This document shows positions 8,657 through 12,840 of a DNA stretch of 64,000 bases, in pieces; position 1 is the stretch's first letter; each line of letters starts with the position of its first letter. Source of the DNA: Thiogranum sp. (GTDB taxonomy: Bacteria > Pseudomonadota > Gammaproteobacteria > DSM-19610); assembly GCA_030148915.1 (NCBI GenBank), contig JASBSN010000043.1, positions 1-64,000 of the forward strand. Reading direction: 5' to 3'. Under the pieces are notes generated by a model. It made no database searches, was not told the origin of the DNA, and saw nothing but the letters and a program-made list of their open reading frames with translations. The translations under genes were made by a program, and so were the position numbers.

Positions 8657-8851
8657 GGCGCTTTCTCCGTCTCAAGCTGCGTGTCGGTGCACGGCAGGTA
8701 AATGGGTAAGAGCAGGTCGTCGACCGCCCGGCGGCGGCCGGAGCCCGGATTAAATACCCTAGGAGAAATGCCGCCCAGACGCATTATCAAATGTTCGATG
8801 TCCACGGCCGGATACCGTGCGCCGATGCCGTTTATTCGGGTCAAATAAAAC

Positions 8852-8877
8852 GAATAAACCGGGGGGTTATTGCATCT
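8852..8877 (+). promoter_or_regulatory. Putative ECF promoter of the first sigma gene
   Basis: GAATAA (8852-8857), 17-nt spacer, TCT (8875-8877). The sigma ATG at 8886 is only 8 nt beyond TCT, implying a leaderless or nearly leaderless transcript. The same two-part motif occurs at 52043, 52723, 56273 and, on the minus strand, 51976. Autoregulation is inferred. Confidence 0.55.
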
Positions 8878-8885
8878 TGCATATT

Positions 8886-9440
8886 ATGGAACTGATACGC
8901 CGCCTGCTGGTCACCCGCGATCTCAAAAAAAGGATGGCCGATAATCGCGACCGCCTCTACCGGGTGGCGCTGGCGTGGTGTGGCGACCCGGTGGTGGCCG
9001 ACGATCTGGTGCAGGAAACGCTGATGATTTCCCTGCAGCGGGCCGCGCAGCTGCGGGACCCGGGTGCGCTCAAGGCGTGGATGCACGTGATTCTGGGCAA
9101 TTGCTGGAAAAAACACCTCCGCTGTCTGCGCCCGAGCGTGGACATCGACGAAGCGGGCCTGGCCAGCGAGAATGATGTGGTGGGCGCGTGCAGTGAACAG
9201 GAAATAGTCGAGCGCGTGAGGCGGGCGATTCTCAAGCTTCCGGTCGGCCAACGGCAGACATTGACGCTTGTGGACCTGGCCGGTTTCTCCTACGCTGAGG
9301 TCGCCGAAGTCATGGATATTCCGATAGGAACAGTTATGAGCCGGCTGTATGCCGCCCGGCAAACCTTGCAAAAAGCCCTGGCCAGTTTCCATTCGTCGAC
9401 GCCGCCCGGCACGACCACATATTTGCGGAGGGTGAAGTGA
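8886..9440 (+). CDS. ECF RNA polymerase sigma factor (copy 1)
   Basis: 184 residues from the ATG at MELIRRLL. Region 2 reads DRLYRVALAWCGDPVVADDLVQETLMISLQ, with the DDLVQE core. Region 4 reads LPVGQRQTLTLVDLAGFSYAEVAEVMDIPIGTVMSRLYAARQTL, the -35-binding helix-turn-helix. No regions 1 or 3 are present, as expected for ECF factors. A longer ORF start at 8817 would include the promoter-like motif and has no ribosome site, so I prefer 8886. The next gene overlaps its stop by 4 nt (GTGA) and encodes the cognate membrane anti-sigma factor. It is very similar to the sigma gene at 52078. Confidence 0.92.
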   Translation: MELIRRLLVTRDLKKRMADNRDRLYRVALAWCGDPVVADDLVQETLMISLQRAAQLRDPGALKAWMHVILGNCWKKHLRCLRPSVDIDEAGLASENDVVGACSEQEIVERVRRAILKLPVGQRQTLTLVDLAGFSYAEVAEVMDIPIGTVMSRLYAARQTLQKALASFHSSTPPGTTTYLRRVK

Positions 9441-10144
9441 AAGAGTCCCAGTATTGTTCCGATCGCATGCTGCATGCCTACGTGGACGGTGAACTAAGTA
9501 CCGGCGAAAAGCAGGCCATGCTGTCGCAGTTTGAATCCGACCCCCAGTGCCGCAGGCGGGTGTGTGACTTGCAGCGGACCAAAGAATGGGTGCAGTTTTC
9601 GTTTGAAGGGGAGTGCGCACCGACGCGTGAGCTACCCGCGGCGCGCGCGCCTGCGTGGTTGGCCGGTACGGTGCGGGTGGCGGCCTCGGTGCTGTTGCTG
9701 GTGTTTGTCTTCGGTGCCGGCTGGTATGGGCACAGTCTGCGCGAACAGCGTGATAACCGCGCGACACTGCAACAAGCGGTCCCCGACACCAAGCACGTCA
9801 TTTTGCACATCGGCGAGTCCAACGAAAAGCTCTTTGCGGCGCTGTTGCGCAAGACCGAGGGTATTCTCAAACAGTACAGCGCCCAGGGTATTCAGGTCGA
9901 AGTGGTGGCCAACGCGGGCGGGCTGGATCTTATGCGCACCGCCGCCTCGCAGCATATCGACGATATCAAACAGTTGATCGGGCATTACCCGAATGTGCGT
10001 TTTATCGCCTGCAGCAAGGGCCTGGGGAGACTGCGCGCAAGCGGTAAGGATGCCTCTGTGATCGAGGGGGTCTACGCCCACGAACCGGCCGCCGACCATC
10101 TGATTCAGCGGCTCACCGAAGGGTGGACATTGATCAGGCTCTAA
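9437..10144 (+). CDS. Membrane anti-sigma factor with C-terminal DsrE-like domain
   Basis: 235 residues, GTG start with GGAGG just upstream, translationally coupled to the sigma gene. The N-terminal 60 residues look like an anti-sigma domain (CSDRMLHAYVDGELSTGEKQAMLSQFESDPQCRRRVCDL). Cysteines and histidine are present, but spacing is not the canonical HxxxCxxC zinc motif. One membrane helix lies at about 75-97. The rest (about 118-235) resembles a DsrE/DsrF-like fold: KHVILHIGESNEKLFAALLRKTEGILKQY, VEVVANAGGLDLM, and a cysteine in FIACSKGLGRL (Cys192) where DsrE-type proteins place their reactive cysteine. Topology would put that domain in the periplasm as a sensor. Fold assignment is by pattern, not by search. 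Confidence 0.8.
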   Translation: MKESQYCSDRMLHAYVDGELSTGEKQAMLSQFESDPQCRRRVCDLQRTKEWVQFSFEGECAPTRELPAARAPAWLAGTVRVAASVLLLVFVFGAGWYGHSLREQRDNRATLQQAVPDTKHVILHIGESNEKLFAALLRKTEGILKQYSAQGIQVEVVANAGGLDLMRTAASQHIDDIKQLIGHYPNVRFIACSKGLGRLRASGKDASVIEGVYAHEPAADHLIQRLTEGWTLIRL

Positions 10145-11345: not shown

Positions 11346-11831
11346 ATGACACAATGCGTGCGCAACGTCTTGGTCGCGTTAGTTGGGGTAATCTGGATGG
11401 CCGGCGCCGGCGCCGACAATGCCACCCCCTGGGGCAGGGCCTCGCTGGAGGCGATAGACTATAAGCCGGAGAAAGTCGTTTATGATGTGGCGGTCAACAG
11501 TGTCGAGGCGCTCTCGGGGGTACTCGACCGAGTCAGCTACCTGAACAACATCTATGAGGCTGACCCTTTCGAGGCCTCGATAGTGCTGGTGTTGCACGGC
11601 AATGAAATTCCCTTTTTCAGTGTAAAAAACACCGACCGATACCGCGCATTGATGCAGCGCGCACAGAGTCTTACCCAGTCGGGTCCGATAGAGTTCCGCA
11701 TGTGCCGGGTCGCGGCCAAGGCTCACGGGTTGGAGCCCGAGGATATCCACGGTTTTGTCAAGGTCGTGCCGATGGCTGACGCAGAGATCGTCCGTCTGCA
11801 ACGGGAGCAGGGTTATGCCTACATGCGTTAA
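11346..11831 (+). CDS. Exported DsrE-like protein
   Basis: 161 residues with an N-terminal signal (VRNVLVALVGVIWMAGAGA). The mature part has the DsrE/DsrF-like pattern: KVVYDVAVNSVEALSGVLDRVSYLNNIYEADPFEASIVLVLHGNEIPFFS, then a cysteine in EFRMCRVAAKAHG (Cys120), followed by a conserved-looking valine-rich strand. GGAGAAAGAGC upstream supports the ATG. Cytoplasmic DsrE-type proteins carry or exchange sulfane sulfur on a cysteine; a periplasmic form suggests handling of persulfide or polysulfide outside the inner membrane. It overlaps the next gene by 17 nt, so the two are an operon. Confidence 0.8.
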   Translation: MTQCVRNVLVALVGVIWMAGAGADNATPWGRASLEAIDYKPEKVVYDVAVNSVEALSGVLDRVSYLNNIYEADPFEASIVLVLHGNEIPFFSVKNTDRYRALMQRAQSLTQSGPIEFRMCRVAAKAHGLEPEDIHGFVKVVPMADAEIVRLQREQGYAYMR

Positions 11832-12840
11832 ACGTCTCGCCCGATGCGTGGGAATGGTGGTGATGCTCGTTTCGGCTACTCCGACGGCGTGGGCGGGCGA
11901 GGGCGTAGCGACGCCCTATGGACCGGTAAGCCTGCCTTTCGAGCTGCACAAAGTGCCCAAGGTTCCGGTGTATTACGTGGTCGGTCTGTCCGGGGTGCCC
12001 GGTGCGGACAACGAGGGGCATACGTCGAACGCAGGTTTTGTCGTCACCGAGGGCGGCGTGGTGGTGTTCGATGCGCTGGGTACTCCGGCGCTGGGTTACC
12101 GGTTGTTACAACGTATCCGTGAGGTCACCGACAAGCCGGTTGAGCGCATTGTCATCAGTCATTATCATGCCGACCATGTCTACGGCCTGCAGGCGTTCAA
12201 GGATCACGCCGGCAACCCGCCGGTCTGGGCCCAGCGACTGACCCTGGGCTACGTCGGTGGCAGCAGGGCAACCCAGGGTGAAGACTCGGAGCGCCGGCTG
12301 GCACAGCGGCGCGAGGCGCTGTTCCCCTGGGTGGACGAAAACACCCGCGTCGTGCCACCGGATCGGACTTTCGACGACGGCGCCAGTTTCCAGGTAGGTG
12401 GCATCACCTTTGAGCTCAAGCATCTGGGGCCGGCGCACGCGCCGGGAGACAGCATCATGCTGGTAAAGGATTACGGCGTGTTGTTCAGCGGAGACGTCAT
12501 TTACAAAGGTCGGGTGCCGTTTCTCGACAGTCCGCAGACCGACATCGACCGCTGGTTGCAGGGCTTGGACTATCTGCTGAAGCTGAAACCGCAACCGACC
12601 TATATTATACCCGGGCACGGCTCGGCGTCGCGCGACATGGGCGAAGCGATCGCCGCCACTCGGGATTATATCGACTATGTGCGGGCGGCGATGTCCAAGG
12701 CAGTGGCTGAATTCGTGCCCTTCGACGAAGCCTACGAGGCGACCGACTGGTCGAAGTACCGAAATCTTCCGGCCTTCGATGCCAGTAACCGCGGCAATGC
12801 CTACCGTATCTATCTTGAATCGGAGGCCAAGTCATTCTAG
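11815..12840 (+). CDS. Exported metallo-beta-lactamase-fold protein (SoxH-like)
   Basis: 341 residues from MPTCVKRL, which has GGGAGCAGG upstream and a signal peptide (MVVMLVSATPTAWAG). Zinc ligands are visible: HYHADHVYGLQAF (HxHxDH), HLGPAHAPGD, FSGDVIYKGR and PGHGSASRD. The overall pattern matches SoxH/quinoprotein-relay-type metallohydrolases of the periplasm. It is coupled to the exported DsrE-like gene, suggesting both act on the same sulfur compound. The native 3' end may have been altered: the TAG stop is the end of MITE/REP-like copy 3, directly abutting. Confidence 0.87.
   Translation: MPTCVKRLARCVGMVVMLVSATPTAWAGEGVATPYGPVSLPFELHKVPKVPVYYVVGLSGVPGADNEGHTSNAGFVVTEGGVVVFDALGTPALGYRLLQRIREVTDKPVERIVISHYHADHVYGLQAFKDHAGNPPVWAQRLTLGYVGGSRATQGEDSERRLAQRREALFPWVDENTRVVPPDRTFDDGASFQVGGITFELKHLGPAHAPGDSIMLVKDYGVLFSGDVIYKGRVPFLDSPQTDIDRWLQGLDYLLKLKPQPTYIIPGHGSASRDMGEAIAATRDYIDYVRAAMSKAVAEFVPFDEAYEATDWSKYRNLPAFDASNRGNAYRIYLESEAKSF

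Follow-up and report, generated by a model that had tools for sequence, protein, structure and literature searches.

The closest described counterparts of the system reported here are the ECF26 sigma factors RpoE1 and RpoE4 of Sinorhizobium meliloti, which respond to thiosulfate and taurine and drive the expression of sorT (PMC3511301). Each is followed by the gene of a single-pass anti-sigma factor, EcfR1 or EcfR4, with a periplasmic C-terminal part, and both pairs are autoregulated from promoters with a -35 GGAATA and a -10 GT element (PMC3511301, PMC6180224). The rpoE4 promoter has been mapped, and its sequence, GGAATAAGCGAGGCAGCTCGCTCGTCT, has the form GGAATAA-N15-CGTCT (PMC6180224). The mechanism by which thiosulfate or taurine activates ECF26 sigma factors is still hypothetical (PMC6180224).

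Thiosulfate oxidation is regulated in response to external sulfur in Hyphomicrobium denitrificans as well, where SoxR and sHdrR, two cytoplasmic ArsR-type repressors, work with the membrane transporter SoxT1B as signal unit (PMC11582611, PMC12423496). The way in which external sulfur is perceived by the regulators of sulfur oxidisers has been stated to be poorly understood (PMC11582611). DsrE-type proteins are known from sulfur transfer: in DsrE3A of Metallosphaera cuprina the conserved cysteine takes the thiosulfonate group from tetrathionate, and the protein reacted only with this compound and not with polysulfide or thiosulfate (PMC4175335). DsrE3A is a cytoplasmic carrier with two cysteines that passes thiosulfate to TusA and does not itself act as a regulator (PMC4175335).

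The locus described here was found in a contig of Thiogranum sp., of which 64,000 nucleotides were analysed (called the window below), and its features are the following.

8851..8878, + strand: ECF promoter predicted for the sigma/anti-sigma operon, with -35 CGAATAAA, N14 and -10 CATCTT, ending 7 nt ahead of the sigma ATG
8886..9440, + strand: ECF sigma factor gene, 184 aa, ATG start (PF04542, PF08281)
9437..10144, + strand: anti-sigma gene, GTG start, 235 aa, with a predicted periplasmic DsrE domain
9446..9652, + strand: N-terminal anti-sigma domain, residues 4-72, zinc motif absent
9665..9736, + strand: single transmembrane helix, residues 77-100 (AlphaFold helix; KD19 maximum 2.1)
9788..10141, + strand: DsrE-fold domain, residues 118-235, predicted to be periplasmic
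9806..9808, + strand: codon of His124, invariant among the fusions
10010..10012, + strand: codon of Cys192, invariant and the sole cysteine of the DsrE domain

The arrangement resembles RpoE1-EcfR1 and RpoE4-EcfR4 in that an ECF sigma factor precedes a single-pass anti-sigma factor with a C-terminal part predicted to be periplasmic, and in an apparently autoregulatory promoter of the same type. Unlike it, the S. meliloti systems are alphaproteobacterial, the periplasmic part of the EcfR proteins is described as somewhat RsiW-like rather than DsrE-like, and their targets belong to sulfite oxidation (sorT, a sulfur-compound oxidase), whereas those predicted here are soxXYZAB and dsrE genes. The window's sigma factor is likened to ECF26 by its promoter and not by its own sequence; hence it is not filed as ECF26. 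In comparison with SoxR and sHdrR, the sensor predicted here would be periplasmic and would act through a sigma factor.

An earlier note made from the sequence alone had described an ECF sigma factor paired with an anti-sigma factor that carries an N-terminal anti-sigma region, one membrane helix and a DsrE-like C-terminal part. The sigma factor matches PF08281 (2.8e-15) and PF04542 (1e-11), both above cut-off, and contains sigma-70 regions 2 and 4 only, a match to region 3 being absent. Its gene overlaps that of the anti-sigma factor by 4 nt, and the pairing is borne out. The layout of the partner was also recovered. AlphaFold places three helices at its N-terminus (9-16, 22-34 and 36-55), and on comparing residues 4-72 with RsiW (5wuq_C) in VIA-align a modest Z of 6.3 was obtained; the match of zf-HC2 to residues 10-28 is weak (E=0.0022) and below cut-off. 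Only one membrane helix, the hydrophobic segment at 77-100, is present. With an N-terminal helical domain and an adjoining sigma gene, the protein is a predicted class I anti-sigma factor. It shares with the RsiW-type members of this class the order of anti-sigma helices and one membrane helix, and differs from them in lacking the zinc motif and in carrying a DsrE domain outside.

Residues 118-235 were modelled as an alpha/beta domain with a pLDDT of about 93. A profile of 27 relatives found PDB entries 1l1s (MTH1491; E=3e-21) and 2pd2 (7e-10) over the C-terminal domain, the Cys192 column being aligned with a cysteine of 1l1s. Foldseek likewise gave 1l1s as top match (E=1e-9, TMt 0.89), and VIA-align returned Z values of 18.0 for 1l1s, 17.1 for ST0148 (2pd2), 14.3 for YchN (1jx7), 12.8 for DsrEFH (2hy5_A) and 11.2 for TusBCD, against 7-8 for unrelated rows. 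Pfam DsrE (PF02635) did not match the window's anti-sigma factor by itself but matched six of the 27 relatives, with a best value of 1.2e-6. A chance likeness to DsrE was ruled out by the independent profile, Foldseek and VIA-align results, and as judged from the models the C-terminal domain is confirmed to have a DsrE/DsrF-like fold over its whole length. MTH1491, ST0148, DsrEFH, TusBCD and YchN share the fold and have a conserved cysteine in the same place; members of this fold family are free-standing, whereas in the window's protein a membrane helix joins the domain to an anti-sigma domain. DsrE-fold proteins need not handle sulfur.

In a family alignment of 86 distinct fusions, Cys192, His124 and Trp230 (window numbering) were each kept in all 86 sequences. 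The fused domain has exactly one cysteine in every one of them, and a search for HxxxCxxC gave no occurrence in the 86 fusion proteins. The two observations that the earlier note had named as speaking against its proposal, an unrelated C-terminal fold and a cysteine that varies among homologues, were thus looked for, and neither was made. Standalone DsrE relatives also keep the cysteine (47/47); the column of His124 is occupied by Gln in 31 of them and by His in 15. A zinc-finger redox release of the RsrA/ChrR type was rejected because of the missing HxxxCxxC. With a single cysteine and no such motif, neither an internal disulfide nor a switch based on zinc release is likely, which leaves modification of the one cysteine or a disulfide with a partner.

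It could be argued that the DsrE domain survives only as a structural remnant, has no part in sensing, and that the sigma factor is released by envelope proteases answering another cue. Regulated proteolysis is indeed a common release route of single-pass anti-sigma factors. However, Cys192 and His124 persist without exception even where identity to the window protein falls to about 21-25%, which would not be expected of a remnant, and the regulon is linked to sulfur; this explanation is therefore considered the least probable of all, with hardly any weight left to it.

The distribution of the fusion was studied next. Matches were found in 26 of 56 related genomes. Full-length fusions were present in 66 of 369 gammaproteobacterial genomes, taken as an even sample, and came from about 40 families; the earlier observation thus concerns a widespread family rather than a single odd protein. 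Within a phylum-wide sample full-length fusions occurred only in Gammaproteobacteria, and among the plasmid records searched there was no relative. The named relatives, obtained by searching genome contigs with a 12-sequence alignment, are mostly metagenome-assembled genomes labelled Thiogranum or Thiohalobacter. A sigma gene lies immediately upstream in 84 of the 86 fusions. Fused and standalone DsrE domains fall into separate tree groups with support of 100/99, which, for a short alignment, fits a single origin of the fusion with later duplications. That the gene fusion is a one-off was ruled out by this separate grouping together with the many-genome distribution. The fusion is closely associated with SoxB, which was found in 65 of the 66 fusion genomes and in 85 of the 303 others (P=5e-29, genomes being counted without phylogenetic correction).

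Several arrangements of the loci were observed besides. At L146 and L152, two pairs of sigma and DsrE-anti-sigma genes stand in tandem between two secreted DsrE genes that differ from each other. Loci of paralog groups B and C (L040, L072 and others) have typical neighbours in several genomes: mnmE and further genes characteristic of the replication-origin region for group B, and groEL/groES, cutA and a DsbD-like gene for group C.

Upstream of the sigma genes a motif of the form GGAATA-N16-CGTCT was found, with close variants (GGAATA-N16-C(G/A)TC). One exact form was common to 33 of 83 sigma upstream regions, where shuffled sequence gave no more than 3, and the family pattern was present in 71 of 83 (reversed control, 0/83). 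As the group C variant with a 15-nt spacer is missed by a fixed-width matrix, the counts were made with a pattern that allows either spacer length. The motif agrees with the -35 GGAATA / -10 GT consensus and with the mapped ECF26 promoters of S. meliloti, that of rpoE4 included (PMC6180224). Secreted dsrE genes have a copy of their own in 21 of 47 cases (reversed control, 0), and where such a gene is divergent from sigma, back-to-back promoters were observed. Genome-wide, the strict motif occurred 65 times in 60 fusion genomes, against 7 for the reversed pattern; in 30 fusion-less genomes the figures were 7 and 8.

The gene divergent from sigma under a back-to-back motif is not always dsrE (L188, L254, L175, L176, L249); it encodes a SoxB-like phosphoesterase in some genomes and a porin-like protein containing NWLMLQG in others. 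In the window's genus (window 8873-8886; L207, L210-L214, L220, L224, L226, L227) the sigma start lies about 6-9 nt past the -10 box, so that the sigma mRNA is predicted to be leaderless or nearly so. The corresponding distance is longer in other families.

Away from the sigma locus, the motif was found ahead of genes for SoxB (TIGR04486, 1.9e-221), SoxX (TIGR04485) and SoxY (TIGR04488), all assigned above the NCBIfam cut-offs, and ahead of a YeeE/TsuA-type sulfur transporter (PF04143, 1.7e-70). Further matches precede genes for a SoxH-related hydrolase, secreted DsrE proteins, a SoxB-like phosphoesterase, a thioredoxin-fold protein, a DUF302 protein, porin-like proteins and a PhnD-like binding protein. 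Upstream of soxB the motif was present in 16 of 40 fusion genomes and in 3 of 20 SoxB genomes without the fusion; within 300 nt of soxB the counts were 12/40 and 0/20 (P=0.004). In nine of the fusion genomes a site lies 2.48-2.70 kb upstream of soxB, a position that corresponds to the start of soxXYZA in the two genomes inspected. In 24 of the 40 fusion genomes no motif was seen ahead of soxB within the stretch scanned, which extended to 5 kb or, on some contigs, less. Since the motif of the switch also stands ahead of thiosulfate-oxidation genes, the switch is probably the means by which many sulfur oxidisers sense sulfur compounds outside the cytoplasm and turn on their use.

A response to some other chemistry was weighed against these targets. 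The cysteine and histidine might answer peroxide, hypochlorite, copper or a disulfide partner, in which case the domain would be a general thiol-oxidant, redox or metal sensor and its link to sulfur oxidisers indirect. A lone periplasmic cysteine with a conserved histidine could bind metal or form mixed disulfides, and redox-sensing anti-sigma factors are common (PMC7406223). Nevertheless, the domain has neither HxxxCxxC nor a second cysteine with which to form an internal disulfide, the recognisable targets are genes of sulfur oxidation and not of oxidant defence, and the fusions are nearly absent from genomes without SoxB. Sensing of this general kind is accordingly held to be very improbable.

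The earlier note had also proposed that the DsrE domain senses persulfide, polysulfide or thiol oxidants and thereby releases the sigma factor. A role in sensing sulfur is strongly favoured by context, because the fusions are nearly restricted to Sox-carrying Gammaproteobacteria and because adjacent secreted DsrE genes share the promoter type, which also occurs ahead of sox genes in fusion genomes; the reaction of Cys192 with persulfide, polysulfide or thiosulfate and the release of sigma are still matters of inference. Nothing found here speaks for copper or general thiol oxidants as the signal. The explanation considered likely is that the protein spans the membrane and senses periplasmic sulfur compounds by way of Cys192, controlling its own operon, a secreted DsrE and Sox genes. 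Its cytoplasmic N-terminal domain would hold the sigma factor at the membrane while the DsrE domain sits in the periplasm. There, a sulfur compound encountered during periplasmic sulfur oxidation (thiosulfate, tetrathionate, polysulfide, or persulfide that a protein hands over) would modify Cys192, probably assisted by His124. This modification would be transmitted through the membrane helix and set the sigma factor free, by a putative conformational or proteolytic step. Freed sigma would then read promoters of the GGAATA-N16-CGTCT type, at its own operon and, in many genomes, at a secreted DsrE gene and the sox operon. Sequence and models support the architecture, the fold, the invariant cysteine and histidine, the operon, the promoter motif that sigma and dsrE genes share with some sox genes, and the association with SoxB; the topology, the ligand, the chemistry at Cys192, activation (rather than repression) by sulfur and the wider regulon of the window's sigma factor are predictions.

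The main rival to direct sensing is a relay of two proteins, in which the secreted DsrE would be the real sulfur carrier or sensor and would control the anti-sigma factor through a DsrE-DsrE heteromer, the fused domain serving mainly as a docking or receiving site. A secreted DsrE gene lies within 6 kb of 46 of the 86 fusion loci, usually divergent from sigma or just downstream and often with its own promoter copy, and DsrE-family proteins do form heteromers, as do the subunits of DsrEFH and TusBCD (2hy5 and 2d1p are among the fold matches). On the other hand, the remaining 40 loci, those of the window's own clade included, are without a nearby secreted DsrE that has a family match, and the fused domain retains an invariant cysteine and histidine that docking alone would not need. 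The relay is hence judged unlikely, though it deserves more weight than the other alternatives. The broader proposition of a so far undescribed, widespread class of transmembrane sulfur sensors in sulfur-oxidising Gammaproteobacteria, in which a periplasmic DsrE obtains sulfur either directly from substrates or by way of a secreted DsrE carrier under the same control and thereby switches on Sox through an ECF sigma factor, is put forward tentatively, at slightly less than even chances.

In the open-access literature searched, which did not extend to the 2021 ECF re-classification (10.1093/nar/gkaa1229), no DsrE linked to an anti-sigma factor was found, nor was an ECF sigma factor linked to sox genes found in the open-access literature searched. 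The parts are known; the way they are combined, and the position this gives them in sulfur oxidation, appear to be new. A DsrE domain within an anti-sigma factor offers a concrete sensor that can be mutated at one cysteine and one histidine, in dozens of gammaproteobacterial families, and the built-in sensor together with the predicted sox regulon makes external-sulfur sensing and ECF26 activation directly testable. If the proposal is true, DsrE would be a signalling domain as well as a sulfur carrier, and a direct answer would be given to how sulfur outside the cytoplasm is sensed in sulfur-oxidising Gammaproteobacteria.

Two further groups of genes with the motif were observed. A PhnD-like substrate-binding protein gene carries it in two distant genomes, G174 (L174:1643-2599) and G015 (L216), and is followed in G174 by the gene of a sensor-kinase-like membrane protein. 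In two genera (L217, L230) an ABC transporter ATPase gene stands behind the window-type motif GAATAAA-N14-CATCT and is a candidate for control by the window's sigma group.

Within the window's own genome the promoters were compared directly. The assembly contains only two fusion pairs, that of the window and a second one (G000:C135), which is 37% identical to it and has a divergent secreted dsrE gene. Ahead of soxXYZAB lies GGAATAAATCCTTTGCGCCACCCGTCC, a promoter of the form GGAATAAA...CGTCC, which differs in both the -35 and the -10 box from the auto-promoter of the window's sigma factor (CGAATAAA...CATCTT) and also from the promoter of the second pair (GAAATAAA..CATCTA), so that three promoter types are seen. 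No pair of group C, the group with promoters similar to that of sox, was found in this assembly. As the window's promoter is not that of its own genome's sox genes, control of these genes by the window pair is unproven, and what is shown for the window's sigma factor is its own motif alone. Three extra motif matches in the genome (C6, C45, C116) were taken as chance or left without assignment.

Two genes downstream of the pair were also identified.

11346..11831, + strand: separate secreted DsrE-family protein, 161 aa (PF02635, E=1.2e-5, above cut-off)
11815..12840, + strand: SoxH-related hydrolase of metallo-beta-lactamase fold, overlapping the dsrE gene (TIGR04559 2e-41 and TIGR04558 1.5e-36, both below cut-off)

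No ECF motif was found ahead of these genes (11346-12840), so membership of the dsrE gene in the regulon is unsupported. A member of the same metallo-beta-lactamase group in another genome (L203; TIGR04558 2.6e-45) carries the ECF motif. The secreted dsrE gene of the window, which overlaps the start of the hydrolase gene, forms with it a candidate sulfur-metabolism pair.
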